From positions 62,001-126,000 of IMG/VR virus record IMGVR_UViG_3300023074_000001: a stretch of 64,000 nucleotides of DNA. One strand, 5' to 3'. The stretch's first letter is position 1, and each line of letters begins with the position of its first letter. The stretch comes from a virus. This document shows, in pieces, positions 13,856-51,844 of this stretch. Position numbers and translations under genes: made by a program. Under the pieces are notes generated by a model, which searched no databases, was not told the origin of the DNA, and was given only the letters and a program-made list of their open reading frames with translations.

Positions 13856-14245
13856 ATGATCGCACGTATCATCGCCCTACTGCTCACCCTACTGGTAGCG
13901 GGTACCGTAGCCACCGCATGTAGCACCCCTGAGAGTGCCGTACAGACCATGGTCAGTGTCACCCCTACTGCTACCCCTAGCCTGCCTGTGTGTGTGGTGG
14001 AGGATGGTGCAGGGCAGGCACTGTGTATGTGGGATGCGCACAGGGCAGGCAATGGCATGGGTACTGATGTGGTCAGTGGTGACTGTGCTCTCACTCTCAC
14101 ACACGATGACATGACACAGGGCATGTGCCTCAACGTGCATCACGATGGGGTTGACGGGCCTGATGCGGTACGGGAATGCAATGACATTTACGAGCAGGCT
14201 AAGGGCAAAGTCAATTTGCTCGAATGTTATCGGGCAATGCTTTGA
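13856..14245 (+). CDS. Predicted exported lipoprotein
   Basis: 129 residues. Signal peptide (IARIIALLLTLLVAGTVA) with a lipobox-like VATAC at residue 22, then a T/P-rich linker and a domain with several cysteines (PVCVV, ALCMW, GDCAL, GMCLN, RECND, LECYR) that could form disulfides outside the membrane. Last gene of the rightward early block, followed by a strong terminator. Possibly a superinfection or envelope protein; not shown. Confidence 0.65.
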   Translation: MIARIIALLLTLLVAGTVATACSTPESAVQTMVSVTPTATPSLPVCVVEDGAGQALCMWDAHRAGNGMGTDVVSGDCALTLTHDDMTQGMCLNVHHDGVDGPDAVRECNDIYEQAKGKVNLLECYRAML

Positions 14246-14324: not shown

Positions 14325-14422
14325 ATGCCCGCGACAGCTGTTGGGATTTTTATAGTTAATTCCTACTAAACCGATAGGATATCCTCTGAGTTCTCCACAA
14401 CTAATATAATACAGAACAGGGA

Positions 14423-14505
14423 GTTTCCAAGGAAACCAACCCTAAAATCTGCTGGAAACCTCAAGGAAACTCCCCTGGAAACGTTCTGGAAACCACCTTG
14501 GAAAC
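14423..14505 (+). repeat. Phased GGAAAC repeats
   Basis: GGAAAC begins at 14431, 14454, 14465, 14477, 14488 and 14500: steps of 23, 11, 12, 11, 12, one or two helical turns. An inverted copy GTTTCC lies at 14423. The array ends at the stop codon of the translocase gene (14506), between convergent genes. This looks like a protein-binding array: transfer locus, origin or partition site. Confidence 0.75.
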
Positions 14506-16485
14506 TTAGCCTAAATAGCGCCAGAATCCTTCCGGTGTCTTCTCCAGTCTACCCTCTGACTGCATAGCGGTGAGCCTCTTACTGACCCATGATTTACCTC
14601 TGTCTGCCGTCATGGATTCCTGTATTTCCTTGTTGACGAAGGTAGTCTTTCCTTCGGCTTTCCAGGACTCCAGAATATTGTAAACCTCCGCAATAGCTGA
14701 AGCAGTCTCATAAGGATCTGTACCTAAATTCCCAGTAGTTTGCGCCTTGGTAGGAATTACTTGAGTAGGTTGTGCGGGACTCAAGTCTATAGTTTCTAGA
14801 TCCTCCAATGTCAATACTTGCGTATCAGGTGCTACCGGCCAATCCTTTGTGGTGTCTCTGAATCCTCTGTTGGATCTCATTTCCTGCCAGGAGGTACTAC
14901 CCGCAGCTACACTATCTCTATAAGCCTGGTAATCCAAACCTAATGCATCAGCGGTAATATTGTCCATAGGATACTCAGGATATGAATCCACATGCTGCTC
15001 TAGATTTCTTACATCTATCCAGTCACTAAGAAGCTGATGAGACGCTAGTCTCTGATCTATCCCAGCAGCCTCTAGATAGAAATGGCCGGGGAATCTATCC
15101 TGCCATAAATGCGGGCTAGCTCCCGATGAACGAGCATACTCCGATAACCCGAACTCAGCATCTCTTTTAGCTTTGACGCCGAAACACATATTACCGCCGA
15201 GGTTATAGCGAGCTGAGGTATTGATACGGTCAGCAGTAGCACGCTGAAGACTAAGCACAATAGTTATTCCAGCAGAACGAGCAGCCTCTAGAAGTTCGAT
15301 CAAATCATTGACCTTAGCAAAACGAGCAGCCTCCTCCAGATGGAAAATCAAGAAGTTAAGACCGCAACCTGACTCCCAATGAGATAATCCTATGCTGGTA
15401 AGGTAATTAGTACGAGCCTCAACAGCATTGATGACAGCATCAATCTGTTTCAGACAATCATCCTCGGTCCAGGCGAACCAAGCCAGCTTAGAAGCCAGAG
15501 GCCCCCCTGTCTGCATACCTTTAGCAGGATCTCCATAGATGACAGACACCTCACTACGAGCCAATACGGTACCATAAATAGCCTGCCAAGCCTTTGACTT
15601 ACCTGTTCCTGGCATTCCTACAGTAAGGAAATGCTGAGATGAGCCTCCATCTTTTCCAGCAATATAGATGACACCACGCTGACCTGTGTCATAAGTAGCG
15701 AATCCTACAGGAGCAACAATCGATTGACCAGGGTATTCTGGCCCCAGCCAAGGATTCTTAGTCTTAAAAGGATTCTCATCGAGAATAGTAATATCTACTT
15801 CACCTTCGATACCGGAATCTGTTTCTGAAACGTGTACTAGAGTACGAGGCTTACCAGCTATTTGAGCCATCTCGATAGCCTTACTCTTAGCATCCTCTAT
15901 TCTTTTACCTAAGCTAAGTTTCATACGGTAGACAGCACCATTACTGGTTTTGTAGCTCTTTTCCTTGTTGATATGGGTAGATTCACCCAGACCGATAGCA
16001 GCAAAGGGATTCTCACTTTTAGTGCTGTTCTCGTTGTCTTCACCTCTGTAGGCCCACCTGCGAATACACCAGGATAAACCTAGAACAGCTCCACCGTACA
16101 TGAAAGTATAGACCGTAGGCATACCGAACATCCACTCACCGAGATCCTGCCATACTGCAATAATCATCCATACGTGTACTAATACAGAAGTAACAGCAGC
16201 ATGTACAGAAATGAAGTGATGAAATTGGTCTCTAGGTCGAAAAAGTTTCCAGGCTAATGCTGATAAAATCAGCATACTAACAACAATAATAATTGTCAGT
16301 ACCTGACTAGCATCTACTGCGGAGGTATCCCCCCAATTCACCTGTGCCCATACACCTAATCTACTGATAACAGCCATGAGAAAAGCTAAACCCGCCCCGA
16401 TGAGCATAGCAATATACGGTAAAGCTTTACCGAACAGTGCGTATTCATCATCGTAGCGGGTTACGTTAATGTTTCTTGTTGCCAC
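14506..16485 (-). CDS. TraB/FtsK-like DNA translocase
   Basis: 659 residues from GTG 16485 behind AGGAGTCGCT (an upstream ATG at 16536 lacks a site). Four N-terminal membrane helices (about residues 20-45, 62-82, 93-115, 122-142), then a RecA-like motor: Walker A GMPGTGKSK near 290, Walker B FLIFHLEE near 380, and the FtsK/TraB-like segment LSLQRATADR. The last 60 residues form a winged helix (VNKEIQESMTADRGKSWVSK...), as in FtsK gamma or TraB, which bind short repeats. In Streptomyces plasmids TraB alone moves double-stranded DNA between cells. The repeats 14423-14505 lie directly beyond its stop. Role in this phage inferred. Confidence 0.75.
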   Translation of the reverse strand: MATRNINVTRYDDEYALFGKALPYIAMLIGAGLAFLMAVISRLGVWAQVNWGDTSAVDASQVLTIIIVVSMLILSALAWKLFRPRDQFHHFISVHAAVTSVLVHVWMIIAVWQDLGEWMFGMPTVYTFMYGGAVLGLSWCIRRWAYRGEDNENSTKSENPFAAIGLGESTHINKEKSYKTSNGAVYRMKLSLGKRIEDAKSKAIEMAQIAGKPRTLVHVSETDSGIEGEVDITILDENPFKTKNPWLGPEYPGQSIVAPVGFATYDTGQRGVIYIAGKDGGSSQHFLTVGMPGTGKSKAWQAIYGTVLARSEVSVIYGDPAKGMQTGGPLASKLAWFAWTEDDCLKQIDAVINAVEARTNYLTSIGLSHWESGCGLNFLIFHLEEAARFAKVNDLIELLEAARSAGITIVLSLQRATADRINTSARYNLGGNMCFGVKAKRDAEFGLSEYARSSGASPHLWQDRFPGHFYLEAAGIDQRLASHQLLSDWIDVRNLEQHVDSYPEYPMDNITADALGLDYQAYRDSVAAGSTSWQEMRSNRGFRDTTKDWPVAPDTQVLTLEDLETIDLSPAQPTQVIPTKAQTTGNLGTDPYETASAIAEVYNILESWKAEGKTTFVNKEIQESMTADRGKSWVSKRLTAMQSEGRLEKTPEGFWRYLG

Positions 16486-16561
16486 AGCGACTCCTGTCTT
16501 ATTGTCCTCTACTCTAGAGAGCATAAGAGTCAGCATAGCACGATTATTTCTTAGTGTGCAA

Positions 16562-16750
16562 CTATCTGTCTTTGCGAGAATCCCAGGCCACGGAAGCTAT
16601 AAGCCCACAAATTACCCCAGAGGGTAGGATTCCTATTAAGGTAAAAAACCAATAAAAGGAATCCGTTAGACCAAGGTAGATGCAGAAGCCTATGACTATC
16701 GCAAAAATGCAAGTCAAAATAGAGAACCCTGCGAATATTAAGTTTTCCAT
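16562..16750 (-). CDS. Small two-helix membrane protein
   Basis: 62 residues from ATG 16750 behind AGAAAGTG, one base after the stop of the next gene upstream. Two hydrophobic helices (FAGFSILTCIFAIVIGFCIY and FFTLIGILPSGVICGLIASV). Small Spd-like membrane proteins accompany TraB in plasmids; position fits, sequence alone does not prove it. Confidence 0.6.
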   Translation of the reverse strand: MENLIFAGFSILTCIFAIVIGFCIYLGLTDSFYWFFTLIGILPSGVICGLIASVAWDSRKDR

Positions 16751-17642: not shown

Positions 17643-17987
17643 CTAATAACTATCATTTTGCGCTAGAGCTACACCTCGATCTACACCTTCGGCATATGCC
17701 TTGTCCAATTCTGTTTCTAGTTCTGTTATTCTCTCTTCAAGGTCTTGGATTTGCTGATCGTATTCTTCTTCCATCTGCTCCTGCATAGAAGCCTCGCCAT
17801 CTTCAACACCGAGTTGATAAGCAGTATCACGCTCATTATCGATTCTGTCAGAATACTGAGCAACAAGTACTTCTAGCTTTTCCAGCAGCCATTTACGATC
17901 AATACTTAATGGCTCTGACGGATTTTCATCTATCAGAGCCATAACGTCTTCTGCAAATTTATAAGCAGTATTATCTTGAGTAGTCAT
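17643..17987 (-). CDS. Coiled-coil protein, leaderless mRNA
   Basis: 114 residues, acidic. Residues 65-100 (QMEEEYDQQIQDLEERITEL...) are a strong coiled coil. The promoter TTGACA-17-TATGCT (17994-18022) puts +1 on the ATG, with no ribosome site, so the message is probably leaderless. Function unknown. Confidence 0.6.
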   Translation of the reverse strand: MTTQDNTAYKFAEDVMALIDENPSEPLSIDRKWLLEKLEVLVAQYSDRIDNERDTAYQLGVEDGEASMQEQMEEEYDQQIQDLEERITELETELDKAYAEGVDRGVALAQNDSY

Positions 17988-21093: not shown

Positions 21094-21122
21094 ACATTAC
21101 ATCATCTTGCTGCACTTGTCAA
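21094..21122 (-). promoter_or_regulatory. Minus-strand promoter TTGACA-17-TAATGT for tRNAs
   Basis: -35 at 21122-21117 contains the stop TGA of the gene at 21119; -10 at 21099-21094. Confidence 0.8.
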
Positions 21123-21856
21123 CCTTGACGCACATGAGTTAACACTGTATCCCAGAAATCTTCAGGAGGTAGAGTATTATAAGGATTGTAGTCCTCACCC
21201 AGAGCGTCTGGCGTTAGGTAAATTAAACCAGCTCTACGCCTGCGTGTCAAGGCCAGGACATCATCTAGGTGAGTTACACCATACACTATATGCCAGAATC
21301 GACTTGAGGGATAGTTAATCTGCCATGGCGCAGGTGTATGACTTGCATAATCTGCTTCTGAGCCTTCAAAAGTAGAAATAGCATCACCAGCAAGCATATA
21401 AGATTCATCAGGAATGGTACCACAGTTCAAAATTACTGTATTTGCTCCTGATGACCCATTGTTTAAATCACCGATCCTGTTACGCAAATCAACATAGAAT
21501 GGCTGCTTACTCTTTTCTGAAGAGACCTCATCGAAGAAAATTCCATCTACTTTGTACCAGTTGATGTACTTAACTACTTCAGCCATAATAGCTGTCTTGG
21601 TTTTGTTCGTGTAAGAAGTAGTTACATAACCAACTATCTTAATGCCAGCCGCCTGAGCACGTTTGACTTGAGTAGCCCATTCAGCAGACTTTGTAGTTCC
21701 AGGGCTTGATGCAGGATTTAGCACAGCATATTTTACATAGGGTGCATCAGTTTGCATACGTTCCCATTCTGCATCTGGATTATTTTGCATCCAGGTAGCA
21801 TAGAAATAGGCAGGAACTGCAATTCTTTGTACGGCATCACCGTATTCAGTCGTCAT
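21119..21856 (-). CDS. Spherulin-4-like glycan hydrolase (GH135-type), tail-associated
   Basis: 245 residues. A TIM-barrel pattern: VPAYFYATWM, NPASSPGT, GIKIVGYVTTSYTNKT, then YKVDGIFFDE (residues 102-110) with the DE pair, typical of the spherulation-specific family 4 (fungal Sph3-like enzymes that cut galactosamine-containing polymers). In phages such domains act as depolymerases on host surface glycans. No signal peptide, so it should be virion-borne. It is the last gene of a three-gene unit with 21869 and 22949. Exact substrate unknown. Confidence 0.75.
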   Translation of the reverse strand: MTTEYGDAVQRIAVPAYFYATWMQNNPDAEWERMQTDAPYVKYAVLNPASSPGTTKSAEWATQVKRAQAAGIKIVGYVTTSYTNKTKTAIMAEVVKYINWYKVDGIFFDEVSSEKSKQPFYVDLRNRIGDLNNGSSGANTVILNCGTIPDESYMLAGDAISTFEGSEADYASHTPAPWQINYPSSRFWHIVYGVTHLDDVLALTRRRRAGLIYLTPDALGEDYNPYNTLPPEDFWDTVLTHVRQG

Positions 21857-40170: not shown

Positions 40171-40704
40171 GTGTTAACACAAGGCGATGACGAGCTGATT
40201 CTGCACCTAGCAGGATGCTCACTTGCGCGTACACCCGGGAAAAACAACTGGGTTGAGGAAGACGCCGTAGGTGGTCTTCCAGAATACATTTGTCGTATTG
40301 CTAGAGCTGTTCACCGCGATGGAAGTCATTCCATTTCTCAGTCCATTGCTATTGCAGTAGGCAGAGTTAAAACATGGGCTCGTGGTGGAGGCGGAGTAAC
40401 CGCTAAAACTCGTGCGCAAGCAGCAAAGGCATTAGCTCAATGGGAATCTAAGAAGAAAGCAGCAAAATTAGACAACAAGGTAAAGACTTCTGATTCTAGT
40501 ACAATCGATACTGCCCTGACAGATCATCAGCTAGAGATGGCGGGGCTCATTCCATGCACTGAGAAAACTAATCGTAGTTTGCTGGAAAATGTCAAATTAG
40601 CTTATGAATTAAAAGAAGAAAAACTAGCCATTTTAACTTCTCTGGCAGACAAGCCTCACCTGCTGGCGTTATCAAAACAACAATTAACTGAGGGCTCGCA
40701 ATGA
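40171..40704 (+). CDS. Conserved actinophage packaging-region protein
   Basis: 177 residues from GTG 40171 behind AAGGAG. Residues about 35-95 (YICRIARAVHRDGSHSISQS, IAIAVGRVKTWARGGGGVTA) follow a pattern common in actinophages (IA..i...GhS.S.AIa.Ai..vk.WA.G...V...tqA.AakAvA.WE). Often next to terminase or capsid genes; a DNA-binding or small-terminase role is possible. Confidence 0.6.
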   Translation: MLTQGDDELILHLAGCSLARTPGKNNWVEEDAVGGLPEYICRIARAVHRDGSHSISQSIAIAVGRVKTWARGGGGVTAKTRAQAAKALAQWESKKKAAKLDNKVKTSDSSTIDTALTDHQLEMAGLIPCTEKTNRSLLENVKLAYELKEEKLAILTSLADKPHLLALSKQQLTEGSQ

Positions 40705-42530
40705 GCCTCTCTGATCTACTGGTCGGAGCATTCGATGACAACCCTAAGTCAGGACTTGATGACATCTTTGCCGAGGAACCAGTTAGTCTAGATATTTTTG
40801 TCAGAGATAAGAAGTTCATGGGTGCAGGAGATGCGTGGGCATTATCTCCTGTGCAATTTGAGGCTGTAAAGTATGCTGAACGAATTTTCTATCCTGATCT
40901 TTATCCTTTGATGGGAGAATACTTTGATCCTTACTGGGCTGAACCTATCAGAATGGTTAACTTCGTTAATCTTCAGTGGGGAAAGGGCTCAGGTAAGGGT
41001 CACGTCTGTAGAACTATTTCTCTTCGTGTAGCTTATTTACTTCTGTGCCTGCGTTCTCCTCAGGAATATTTTGGTATGCCAGCTCAGGACTCTATTCACC
41101 TACTTAATGTTGCTATGAATGCACAGCAGGCACAAAGAGCATTCTTCGATCCTGTAGAAAAACTAGTACGCACCTCTCCATGGTTTAGAGATAAGGCTGC
41201 ACCTACTCGCGGCGCTATTGTTTATGCTAAAAACATCGAAGCTATTTCAGGTCACTCAGAAGCAGAATCTCAGGAAGGTCTTAACCTTCTTCTAGGTGTA
41301 GCTGACGAGGTTGATGGATTCAAGTCAAAGGAGGAGGTAAGAGGAAATACTACAGGAAGGGTTCCGCAGAATACTGTAGAGGGTATTCTAGATATGATGA
41401 GAACATCTTCTTCTACACGTTTTCCTGTAACATTTAAGAACGTACGTATCTCCTACCCTAGGTACCTTGGTTCCGCAATTCAGCGTTTAACTCAGCAGTC
41501 TAGAGACGACATCGAGAAGAGAGGCGAGAAGTCTCGTCACTATGTATCTGGCCCCCTACCTACCTGGGTTGTCAACCCGAACTTCAAGAGATTCGAAAAG
41601 GTTTCTGTGCCTGGCACTGATGAATTGGTACCGGAGATTTATCGTGAGGATTATGAAGAAGATGTTTCTATGGCGAAGGCTAAGTATGAGTGTAAGCCAT
41701 CAAAGGCATCTAACCCATTCTTCCGTAATGAGTTTCTTGTTCGTAGATCCTTTACGCCAACATTACATCAGCCTGTAGAAATTCAATACTATAAGCAAGG
41801 CAACAGTTGGGAAGTTAAATATCACTTCTCTGATGATTTAAAGCCCATCAAGGGTGCTCAATATGCTATGCACGGTGATTTAGCTGTAACCGCTGACCGT
41901 GCTGGAATAGCTATGGCTCACGTTGTACGCAAGGAGGAGTTCGAGTCCACCGTAACATTAGAAAATGGTGAAACTACTTCTATCAGAGAGATGCGTCCTA
42001 TTGTTAAGGTAGACTTTGTTTTCAGCTTCGAATCAGCTAAGGGTGAAAACCCTCCACGTGAGATCCAGATTCGCTGGGCACGTGAATTGGCTTATGAGCT
42101 GAAAAAGAGGGGGTTCAGGATAAAGCGATTTACCTTCGATGGATTCGAGTCACGCGACTCTATGCAAATTCTAGAGAAGTCTGGAATCGAATCAAGTAAG
42201 GTATCTACGGATAGGTCTAATGAGCCCTGGAGAAACCTGATGGATGTTATGTACGATGGCAGGCTTATTGCTCAGCATAGGGATCTTCTGGTAGATGAAT
42301 TGCTAGGTTTGACTATTCTTCCGAACGGTAAAGTTGACCATCCTAGAATGGGATCTAAAGATGAAGCTGATGCATTAGCTTGTGCAGTTTTTGGAGCTGT
42401 TGAGCAAGGTGGACGAGAAAATGAAGCCGGAGAAACAGCTTTTTATACTCCAGCACAGTTTTTTATGGGTCCAAGAGTAGAATTACCTATGGGTATGTCA
42501 CATACTTTGATGCATCAACAAGAAATTTGA
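40701..42530 (+). CDS. Terminase large subunit
   Basis: 609 residues, start overlapping 40171's stop. ATPase: Walker A GKGSGKG (94-100), Walker B LLLGVADEVD (195-204). The C-terminal nuclease has ALACAV late and acids in HGDLAVTADRAG and FTFDGFESRD. Packs DNA into the prohead. A perfect 15-bp hairpin follows its stop by one base. Confidence 0.9.
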   Translation: MSLSDLLVGAFDDNPKSGLDDIFAEEPVSLDIFVRDKKFMGAGDAWALSPVQFEAVKYAERIFYPDLYPLMGEYFDPYWAEPIRMVNFVNLQWGKGSGKGHVCRTISLRVAYLLLCLRSPQEYFGMPAQDSIHLLNVAMNAQQAQRAFFDPVEKLVRTSPWFRDKAAPTRGAIVYAKNIEAISGHSEAESQEGLNLLLGVADEVDGFKSKEEVRGNTTGRVPQNTVEGILDMMRTSSSTRFPVTFKNVRISYPRYLGSAIQRLTQQSRDDIEKRGEKSRHYVSGPLPTWVVNPNFKRFEKVSVPGTDELVPEIYREDYEEDVSMAKAKYECKPSKASNPFFRNEFLVRRSFTPTLHQPVEIQYYKQGNSWEVKYHFSDDLKPIKGAQYAMHGDLAVTADRAGIAMAHVVRKEEFESTVTLENGETTSIREMRPIVKVDFVFSFESAKGENPPREIQIRWARELAYELKKRGFRIKRFTFDGFESRDSMQILEKSGIESSKVSTDRSNEPWRNLMDVMYDGRLIAQHRDLLVDELLGLTILPNGKVDHPRMGSKDEADALACAVFGAVEQGGRENEAGETAFYTPAQFFMGPRVELPMGMSHTLMHQQEI

Positions 42531-42531
42531 G

Positions 42532-42574
42532 TTTCCTCCTGCCGATGATTAAAAAAGAAATCGGCAGGAGGAAA
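42532..42574 (+). promoter_or_regulatory. 15-bp hairpin hiding the portal ribosome site
   Basis: TTTCCTCCTGCCGAT (42532-42546) is the exact inverse of 42560-42574, which contains AGGAGG, the ribosome site of the portal ATG at 42577. It starts one base beyond the terminase stop. Confidence 0.85.
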
Positions 42575-42576
42575 AC

Positions 42577-44361
42577 ATGGCAAGAGACGACATGGCAACA
42601 CCTAAACCTCGTCCTCTAATAGAGCGAGGCTTTAGTGACTACATGCCTTTCACGGAACCTTATGAAGGTTCTCATTTAGTTTATAAACCATCTGAGGTTA
42701 GTATTGACCAATTGGTCAGAATGCGACAGACAGATGGTCAGGCACGCGCATTGTATCGATTAGTAACACTTCCTATTAGGGCAGCATTGCAGAATGCTAC
42801 ATTCGTACCCGCAGATAATGTAGAGGGCGGCGAGGAGGAAGCTGAGTTTGTCGATCAATTATTCAACCTTCCTCCTAATGCTGGTGGAATGAGTGTGCCC
42901 TTTACTCGCGTAGTAGCTCAGATGCTTCAGGCAATCTTTGATGGTTACGCTCCTTTTGAAATGGTTTATTTCCAGCCCGCAATTGGGCCGTTAAAGGGTA
43001 AGTGGACCCTGAAGAAGATGAACTACTTACCAGCTAACACAGTAAAGTTTTTAGTAACTGAGGATGGTAGCTTTGATGGATTCAGACAGATTACTCAAAA
43101 GCCCGGCGGTAAGATCCTTGATGTTAAGATTCCTAGAGATGCTTGTGTATATTATGCCGCCCAAGAGGAAGAAAACCGTTTCTATGGGTTATCTTATTTC
43201 CAAAGTGCGTACTATCATTACGACAAGAAAGTTAAACTCTACTACTTAATGCATCTGGCTGCACAGCGTTCTGCCGTAGGAACCCGTGTCGGAACGGTCC
43301 CTGAGGATCACTCAACAGATGAATTAAATGCTTTCCGTGCAGGTCTATCTGACTTAGGTGTAGCTCAGTGGATGACAAAGCCTGAGGGTTATGAGGTGGA
43401 GTTGCTTAAGGAAGGTGGTTCATTCGACTTCTTGTCTTATATTAATCATCACAATTCTCAAATGTCTAAATCTATTCTTGCTGCATTCTTTGATGAAAAC
43501 CAGGGTACAGGTGGAGATGCATCCTTAGTAGATTTTGGTAAGCAGACTGACTCCTTGTTCGTCATGATGCTCCAGACTATTATGACAGAAATTGCTTCTA
43601 TCATAAATCATTACATCATTCCTCGCTTCGTAGACTGGAATTACAACTCCAGTAAGTATCCTGAGTTTCGTTGGGGACCATTCACCGACGACCAAAAAGA
43701 TGCTATTCAAGATGTCTTCAAGGCTATTGCTGGCATTCAGGGTGGAAACTTCACCAAGGAGTTTGCTCGTGAAATCGAGAAGAAGGTTTCTTCCGAGTTT
43801 GGTCTTGAAATTGATTATGAAACCATCGAAGAGGAGGAGAAGGCAGCTGAAATGGCGTCTGCCGTAGATGCTGGAGGGGAGTTATCTCCTGAGGGTGAAA
43901 TTTCTCCAGAGAATACTATTCCGACAGAGTTCTTACCGGAAGGATTCGCCTTGTCTAATGTTGAGTTAGCAGGAATCCGTAAAGTTAATTCACAAGAAGG
44001 TGTTCGTCGTTATGGTTTACCCATTGGAACTCCGCTAGGTACAGGCCAAGGAGGAGCACCACAGCCTAGAAGTTCTTCGATAGCTCCAGCTAAGGGAACT
44101 ATTCAGAAATCAAGTGACCCGAGAGTTTCACAAGGCAAGGATACTACTCCAGTAAAGGGTAAGGCTGAGGAGAAAGAAGCTGTTCAAAGAATTCTGACAC
44201 ACCCTAGTCCAAAACTGAAGAACGCTAAGGTTCTTGTTTACTCTAATGGTACTGTGCAGATCCAATTCCCTGACGGAACTAAATCTGCAAAAATAGCTAT
44301 TGACTGGAGACTGTTCCGCTCTAAGGGTTGGACAGCCTCTATTACCAGGGAGAAAGATTAA
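42577..44361 (+). CDS. Portal protein, DUF935/Mu gp29-like
   Basis: 594 residues. Segments VRMRQTDGQARALYRLVTLP, IRAALQNATF, EDACVYYAAQ-type core and FQSAYYHYDKKVKLYYLMHL follow the DUF935 portal pattern. The last 170 residues (from EGVRRYGLPIGTP) are a disordered linker and a small domain. Forms the dodecamer through which DNA passes. Translation is probably controlled by the hairpin in front. Confidence 0.85.
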   Translation: MARDDMATPKPRPLIERGFSDYMPFTEPYEGSHLVYKPSEVSIDQLVRMRQTDGQARALYRLVTLPIRAALQNATFVPADNVEGGEEEAEFVDQLFNLPPNAGGMSVPFTRVVAQMLQAIFDGYAPFEMVYFQPAIGPLKGKWTLKKMNYLPANTVKFLVTEDGSFDGFRQITQKPGGKILDVKIPRDACVYYAAQEEENRFYGLSYFQSAYYHYDKKVKLYYLMHLAAQRSAVGTRVGTVPEDHSTDELNAFRAGLSDLGVAQWMTKPEGYEVELLKEGGSFDFLSYINHHNSQMSKSILAAFFDENQGTGGDASLVDFGKQTDSLFVMMLQTIMTEIASIINHYIIPRFVDWNYNSSKYPEFRWGPFTDDQKDAIQDVFKAIAGIQGGNFTKEFAREIEKKVSSEFGLEIDYETIEEEEKAAEMASAVDAGGELSPEGEISPENTIPTEFLPEGFALSNVELAGIRKVNSQEGVRRYGLPIGTPLGTGQGGAPQPRSSSIAPAKGTIQKSSDPRVSQGKDTTPVKGKAEEKEAVQRILTHPSPKLKNAKVLVYSNGTVQIQFPDGTKSAKIAIDWRLFRSKGWTASITREKD

Positions 44362-51054: not shown

Positions 51055-51483
51055 ATGATTAATGTTGTTTCTAGAAAGCTAGGTAAACGAGGAGCATCCT
51101 GCCTCTGGTTTGGGATTGTCTTCATAGTTATTGGCTTGTCTTTTGTTATAGGAGATCCATCGCCGACCTTGCAATTAAACCTGCAATTTCTTTCCAGTGT
51201 ACTACCTCTAGAAGTATGGGGTAGCCTATGGACCTTAGGAGGAGTTGTATTTTTGGTAGCTGCGTTATGGAAACGTTTAGAACTCATCGCATTCATGGTT
51301 GGAATTGCTATCACAGCTAATTGGGGTGTTGGCTATGCGATTCAAGCTGCTTTAGGAGAATCATCACGCGGGTGGGTCAGCGCATCGATCTACGGGTTTT
51401 TTGCGGCACTCATTCTCTTGATCTCGACATGGGCAGAGCCAATTGCAGATGTCGAGATGGGAGAAGGGGACAATGGATCTTAA
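51055..51483 (+). CDS. Four-helix membrane protein
   Basis: 142 residues behind AGGAGG. Hydrophobic segments at about 15-35, 50-70, 75-95 and 105-125. Could be a holin-like protein, though far from the lysin. Overlaps the next gene by 11 bases. Confidence 0.6.
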   Translation: MINVVSRKLGKRGASCLWFGIVFIVIGLSFVIGDPSPTLQLNLQFLSSVLPLEVWGSLWTLGGVVFLVAALWKRLELIAFMVGIAITANWGVGYAIQAALGESSRGWVSASIYGFFAALILLISTWAEPIADVEMGEGDNGS

Positions 51484-51844
51484 TATAGTAGTCGTTGCAC
51501 TAATCAGTTTGGGTGGTCCAATTTTCCTGTACTTCCAAAATAAGTCAAATAATAAAAGACTTCAGGTTAACGATAAAAATGTTATAGCATTAGAAAAAGA
51601 AAAACTAGATGGTTTAGTGCTGGACAGAGCTAAAACTCTATACGAGGGAATGATTTCTCAACTTGAGGCTCAAGCTTCCAAACTTAGAGCGGTAATAGAC
51701 GATTTAGAAAAAGATCTTGCTGAAGAGAGAGAAGATAACGTTAGGTTACGTCAGCGTATTCGAGAACTTGAAATGAAAGTCGCTGATCTAGAAGACCAGC
51801 GATATAAACTTAAGGTACAGCTAGATAGATTGAATAATTCTTAA
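51473..51844 (+). CDS. Membrane-anchored coiled-coil protein
   Basis: 123 residues from ATG 51473 behind GAAGGGG. One N-terminal helix (LNIVVVALISLGGPIFLYFQ) and a long coiled coil (SQLEAQASKLRAVIDDLEKD onward). Pairs with the four-helix protein before it. Possible holin partner or virion protein. Confidence 0.6.
   Translation: MDLNIVVVALISLGGPIFLYFQNKSNNKRLQVNDKNVIALEKEKLDGLVLDRAKTLYEGMISQLEAQASKLRAVIDDLEKDLAEEREDNVRLRQRIRELEMKVADLEDQRYKLKVQLDRLNNS

Follow-up and report, generated by a model that had tools for sequence, protein, structure and literature searches.

The traB locus

The window analysed here is a stretch of 64,000 nt, corresponding to positions 62001-126000 of G000, a virus record of 135,654 bp (IMGVR_UViG_3300023074_000001). 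It encodes a TraB-like DNA translocase, and at the stop codon of this gene lies an array of short phased repeats that we consider a candidate loading site for the translocase. The locus comprises the following features.

14506..16485, minus strand: traB-like gene, 659 aa, GTG start, stop codon TAA at 14506-14508
16033..16443, minus strand: four N-terminal helices, probably membrane-spanning (residues 15-151; AlphaFold2 and hydrophobic sequence)
14986..15678, minus strand: FtsK/SpoIIIE RecA-like motor (about residues 270-500)
14515..14703, minus strand: C-terminal winged helix, candidate repeat-binding domain (residues 595-657)
14423..14505, minus strand: phased array with GTTTCC at gene-strand positions +1, +13, +24, +36, +47 and +70 past the stop codon and one inverted copy at +78
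14417..14477, minus strand: hairpin inside the array that holds the inverted copy, arms at 14465-14477 (CAGGGGAGTTTCC) and 14417-14428 (GGAAACTCCCTG)

A first-pass annotation of this DNA, made without database searches, had likened the translocase to TraB of Streptomyces plasmids, and database searches bear this out. The protein matches the plasmid_TraB profile NF041214 over its full length (residues 40-656 on profile positions 19-631 of 639, E 5.9e-96), whilst tblastn recovered plasmid TraB proteins of Streptomyces, Amycolatopsis, Thermobispora and other actinobacteria at 25-35% identity, with E values down to 1e-50 (Streptomyces). It also matches phrog_24831 (E 3e-65). From the GTG start the N-terminus aligns with those of its relatives; an in-frame ATG at 16536 is also possible.

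The same annotation had described membrane helices, a RecA-like motor and a C-terminal winged helix, all of which were recovered in structure predictions. The AlphaFold2 model, built with 22 sequences (mean predicted local distance difference test score, pLDDT, 78.7), places N-terminal helices at residues 15-51, 56-87, 92-112 and 122-151. The motor carries the Walker A motif GMPGTGKSK and the Walker B motif LIFHLEEA; a fold search ranked FtsK (6t8g) first, with an E value of 8.7e-14, and also returned TcpA (6o1w, E 1.2e-12), whilst a profile search gave FtsK (2iuu, E 2e-13). Modelled alone, the C-terminal 79 residues form a helix-helix-helix-strand-strand fold (pLDDT 87.7) whose top matches are winged-helix DNA-binding proteins in general (E 0.01-0.07); FtsK gamma is not among the best fold matches listed. 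By prediction, the window protein has the membrane helices, RecA/FtsK motor and C-terminal winged helix-turn-helix of plasmid TraB.

On the plus strand the repeat word, GGAAAC, starts at 14431, 14454, 14465, 14477, 14488 and 14500, giving steps of 23, 11, 12, 11 and 12 bp, and an inverted copy is found at 14423. These coordinates agree with the six copies and one inverted copy reported initially. The last copy abuts the stop codon of traB. In a consensus chain test the array scored 43, compared with 21 for the runner-up separate site and a genome 99.9th percentile of 19 (27,110 scored windows, both strands). Moreover, a 6-mer test without a preset word gave it a score of 38, which was equalled by none of 12,612 background windows, and it was the top site of the genome in every scoring scheme applied, including an 8-mer test. 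Beyond the array the word is not enriched, with 67 copies where words of equal composition have a median of 72, and GTTTCC never recurs there within 26 bp. Use of the word in the manner of FtsK-orienting polar sequences (KOPS) was rejected, as there was neither enrichment nor a consistent polarity in 20-kb blocks.

Arrays beside traB in related phages

We compared eight phage traB genes, those of the window and of seven IMG/VR contigs: G005 (coordinates given on L036), L058, L070, L071, L072, L073 and L099. Alignments were needed to find these viral relatives; scanning viral contigs with the window protein alone gave none. No counterpart of the traB region was found in G007, G009, G010, G001 or G006, all of which are partial contigs and thus neither support nor contradict what follows. 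Two scans of cellular genomes returned no relative, a weak negative since the patterns were specific to the phage clade. TraB identity is 53-64% in G005 and L058 and 32-38% in L070-L073. A tree groups the proteins of the window, G005, L058 and L070-L073 in a single clade (support 100/100), separate from 17 TraB proteins of plasmids or IMG/VR elements; L099 was found after the tree was built and is absent from it.

According to the first-pass annotation, its proposal would be refuted by phage relatives that carry the gene and lack the array. We encountered none: a short-repeat array lies on the 3′ side of all eight genes, and in six it adjoins or overlaps the stop codon. It is found at the stop in the window, L058, L071, L073 and L099, overlaps the last codons in G005, and lies +109 nt (L070) and +260 nt (L072) beyond the stop in the remaining two, each time after a terminator hairpin. 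The repeat word is GTTTCC in the window, RTTTCC in G005, RTTTYA in L058, GTYCTAGG in L073, GTTTTAGG in L071 and L099, and CCTAGGAAT in L070 and L072. Across the eight arrays nearly every step measures 10-12 bp, or 21-25 bp where one place is skipped. The word varies with the TraB lineage and this spacing persists. An inverted repeat lies within the site in the window, G005, L058, L071 and L073, and by direct reading in L099; none was seen in the L070 and L072 arrays.

The array is the best site of the examined sequence in the 8-mer test for the window, L058, L070, L071, L072, L073 and L099, and in the 6-mer test those of G005 and L058 each fall within the top 0.11% of windows. L099 was fetched once the prediction was fixed, and its array fits that prediction (z 7.8).

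The setting of the gene differs between these phages. In L071, L073 and L099 traB has homologues of window genes 51055-51844 as neighbours, close to tail genes. The L070 copy has a terminase of another family nearby, separated from it by a DUF2637-type gene, and the pairing of traB and array therefore holds in a second kind of phage. Genes of the DUF2637 type are found near traB in the window, G005, L058, L070 and L071. An array that follows traB into different settings is not what would be expected of a regulatory or replication site belonging to the neighbourhood.

Several further observations concern these sequences. The traB frame of G005 is interrupted once between the membrane and motor parts (L036:5586-5595), by either a sequencing error or a real split. 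Further dense repeats are present upstream of traB in L072 (4051-4500, CGAACAA) and downstream of it in L071 (5051-5400, ATCAAAA/TTTGATA). Lastly, in Streptomyces phage Coruscant (L020:10661-10770), without TraB next to DUF2637, there is a phased GTACATAT array (z 5.9) whose word is unrelated.

Comparison with plasmid TraB/clt and other systems

In Streptomyces, TraB is the sole plasmid protein required for primary transfer of double-stranded DNA (dsDNA) (PMC5365140). The proven clt of plasmid pWTY27 consists of the last 16 bp of the tra gene and a further 159 bp, and the Tra protein leaves footprints on four TGACACC copies and an inverted repeat (PMC3583192). Placement of a clt-like site near traB had been proposed for the window at the outset, and we found the same layout in plasmids: in 6/6 TraB plasmids examined, pWTY27 amongst them, short direct repeats stand right behind the traB stop. 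The words include CTGACACC in pRL1, GTGACACC in Thermobispora (13-bp steps), CCGCACA in NBC_00104 and TGACACC in pWTY27. The phased 8-mer score detects poorly in GC-rich plasmids, and the plasmid arrays rest on direct repeat listing and the literature. The window locus shows what marks a clt, a set of several short direct repeats located at the 3′ end of the tra gene or next to it.

The window system shares with the TraB/clt systems of pSVH1, pIJ101, pJV1 and pWTY27 a full-length homologous translocase with predicted membrane helices, FtsK motor and winged helix, together with short direct and inverted repeats at the 3′ end of the gene. A DUF2637 gene near traB is also common to the window phage and to the pWTY27 and NBC_00104 plasmids, in which it lies near traA/traB; a pairwise BLAST of the window and NBC_00104 DUF2637 proteins was not significant and the link rests on the Pfam model. 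However, the window system belongs to a tailed phage of 135.7 kb that encodes replication genes of its own, its TraB falls in a separate clade under the equivalog cut-off, traA was not seen, and the phage words, set at 11-12 bp steps, are unlike TGACACC or CCGCACA.

Other systems resemble the window in part. FtsK and SpoIIIE, which use KOPS and SpoIIIE recognition sequences (SRS), share the motor fold and a winged-helix DNA-binding C-terminus, whereas the window has one local array rather than polar words along the genome, and its protein is closer in sequence to TraB. TcpA of the Clostridium plasmid pCW3 has an FtsK-type conjugation motor fold but works with an apparatus like a type IV secretion system (PMC5365140), none of which was noticed among the window-phage genes examined. 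The Streptomyces plasmid-phage pZL12, known here through its citation in PMC3583192 as carrying a tra locus, is likewise a phage-related element with a transfer gene, whereas integrase, resolvase and ParA were not found in the window phage. Members of the Stanwilliamsviridae, such as Streptomyces phage Evy, are also large actinobacterial phages with an FtsK-like motor and a DUF2637 membrane gene, but the Evy motor (gp106) matches the window protein weakly (E 1e-5, residues 284-425) and lies far from DUF2637, beside other genes. In this family FtsK-like and DUF2637 genes are annotated separately. We also observed IMG/VR elements (L091/L093 and L092/L094) that contain both TraB and a large terminase (PF03354) and have TGACACC-type repeats behind traB; these are possible phage-plasmids.

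The traB gene row and the phage

The elements downstream of the array and the genes upstream of traB are as follows.

14352..14366, minus strand: non-coding element GTAGGAATTAACTAT, identical in the window, G005 and L058
14266..14318, strand not assigned: terminator-like, bidirectional hairpin that separates traB from the convergent gene 13856-14245
16562..16750, minus strand: small protein, 62 aa, probably two membrane helices, counterparts in G005 and L058
16752..17633, minus strand: DUF2637 membrane protein, 293 aa (PF10935, 28.4 bits against a cut-off of 22.8; phrog_10376, E 2.6e-43)
17643..17987, minus strand: coiled-coil protein of the traB row, conserved in G005 and L058
18019..19110, minus strand: DNA polymerase clamp-loader subunit, start of the row (PF13177, E 8e-23; phrog_5846, E 6e-66)

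The gene order clamp loader, coiled coil, DUF2637, small membrane protein and traB is the same in the window, G005 and L058. The initial suggestion that traB is joined by Spd/DUF2637-like membrane proteins stood for the 293-aa protein, which scores above the Pfam cut-off; the 62-aa protein matches no family above its cut-off. GTAGGAATTAACTAT sits between the array and the terminator; it recurs at L036:7088-7102 (G005) and L058:6624-6638, with one copy per sequence searched, and the TraB proteins of its three carriers are 53-64% identical. The stem of the terminator-like hairpin is kept in G005 and L058 with different bases.

The record has an identical 127-bp stretch at both ends, which fits an assembly that is complete or closed into a circle. 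It belongs to a tailed phage, with terminase and portal matches at 40701-44361 of the window and structural genes collinear with those of Microbacterium phage Magritte and several IMG/VR contigs. The terminase shares 48% identity with that of Magritte (a record without an assigned family) and 31-33% with those of Stanwilliamsviridae members; the closest deposited relatives by this protein have Microbacterium and Streptomyces as hosts. The phage encodes DnaB-like, RecA, DNA polymerase A, beta-clamp, sigma-70 and clamp-loader proteins, and the whole record contains no match to PF00589 (tyrosine integrase), PF00239 (serine resolvase) or PF13614 (ParA), leaving room for other maintenance systems. 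Given its own replication genes and the lack of these matches, the phage looks virulent.

Elsewhere, the window encodes a protein with a Rho N-terminal domain (PF07498; 13076-13765, plus strand) in the convergent gene group, and a Spherulin-4 family protein (PF12138, E 8e-37; 21119-21856, minus strand). Moreover, the phage has a Ro60-type protein with TROVE and vWA domains (L003:13780-15381), and Magritte also has an annotated Ro-like RNA-binding protein.

Interpretation and alternative explanations

We consider it probable that the array is a clt-like loading site, composed of repeats of the TraB recognition sequence (TRS) type, and that the phage's own TraB, once loaded there, moves phage dsDNA across a membrane or septum. 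The first-pass proposal of a transfer, segregation or DNA-pumping system is thereby largely supported, and the sequence leaves it at that breadth. Under this model the C-terminal winged helix would read the short repeat word, and copies about one helical turn apart would bring several protomers onto one face of the DNA, on which a ring of the membrane-anchored motor could assemble. The motor would then use ATP to pump phage dsDNA through the membrane or septum, presumably helped by the DUF2637 and small membrane proteins. The purpose would most likely be the spread of phage genomes past cross-walls or to adjacent cells of an actinobacterial host; the DNA may be delivered to an adjacent cell, to the following compartment of a filament or only to a site within the same cell, and the sequence does not discriminate between these. 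A bolder proposal, that a lineage of large and apparently virulent actinobacterial phages has its own conjugation-like system in which TraB loads on a clt-like array and pumps naked phage dsDNA into adjacent cells or compartments, is one we offer tentatively and with more doubt than confidence.

Several points weigh against the loading-site model. The NF041214 score of 322 bits is far below the equivalog cut-off of 800 bits, and the window protein is thus a TraB homologue and not a member of the equivalog. Together with the separation of the phage clade from plasmid TraB proteins, this low score means that function may have drifted, and traA, the neighbour of plasmid traB, is not seen. Amongst the arrays, that of G005 is degenerate and not top in the 8-mer test, that of L058 is exceptional with its own word only and not with the word of the window, and those of L070 and L072 lie past a terminator in an orientation opposite to that in L071, L073 and L099. 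A unicellular host would make spread through hyphae inapplicable. Moreover, whilst sequence and prediction establish the gene, its homology, the fold as predicted, the array, its phasing and its co-inheritance with traB, the binding, ring assembly, pumping, direction and purpose are steps that we infer from them.

The same loading site and pump might instead act solely within the cell, gathering or partitioning replicated phage genomes or moving them to poles, septa or packaging sites in the manner of FtsK/SpoIIIE on chromosomes, with no transfer between cells; we regard this as unlikely. An intracellular function would suit a motor of the FtsK family in a gene row that begins with a clamp loader, and a virulent-looking phage with the replication genes listed above and no integrase, resolvase or ParA found. 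However, the closest characterised relatives are transfer proteins, the DUF2637 neighbour is as in transfer regions, and there is one local array instead of the dispersed polar words of FtsK/KOPS. Iterons and partition sites, too, typically consist of direct repeats phased at 11-12 bp, and the array occupies an intergenic stretch near a change of gene direction where the GC skew turned negative. It could on these grounds be a replication origin made of iterons, or a centromere, bound by another phage protein and placed beside traB by a chance of layout. We think this quite improbable, as the array stays with traB in the clamp-loader row, in tail-region settings and near the different terminase of L070, and as plasmid traB genes have the same layout, with clt proven for pWTY27.

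Nor does a 3′-end element of the traB transcript, either terminator or mRNA stabiliser, account well for these data. The inverted copies do give a stable hairpin in the window, G005 and L071 (RNA fold z of -2.9, -6.1 and -5.9, respectively), and a T run follows the stem in L071 and L099. Against this, the fold is not significant in L058 (z -0.45), and Rfam gave no usable match at the array. The window, G005 and L058 have a distinct, conserved terminator-like hairpin past the array, whilst the terminator of L070 and L072 comes before it. Proven clt sites, too, include an inverted repeat (PMC3583192), and hairpins leave the 5-9 phased direct copies unexplained; we give an RNA element very little credence. 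Finally, slippage does produce short repeats, and an array without a role could have arisen by it or by chance. We rejected a chance origin, the likelihood of which we consider negligible, since it is contradicted by the background scores (none of 12,612 as high) and by conservation: all eight phage traB genes have arrays of different words at the same step, one of them predicted in advance.

Significance

A tblastn search found no match to the window protein among 50,697 deposited phage records, and metagenomes therefore seem to be the only known source of the phage TraB clade. With the L058 protein, deposited phages yielded nothing beyond a weak match, an ATPase of a Bacillus phage; with the window protein there were no matches even at E 10, where some chance matches would be usual, and we do not rely on this result. 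Neither the deposited phages nor the papers searched contained large phages, free of detected lysogeny genes, that carry a TraB clade with clt-like arrays of its own.

With its own TraB and a loading site to match, a phage clade would combine the spread of a virus with conjugation within a single genome. The natural series of motors and words (GTTTCC, RTTTYA, GTTTTAGG, GTYCTAGG and CCTAGGAAT) would serve to learn how a winged helix reads its repeats. Moreover, if the conjugation-like reading is true, infection could spread without virions and perhaps past surface receptors. As traB and an array recur together in all eight phage genes found, some viruses may have a DNA-transfer system of their own.
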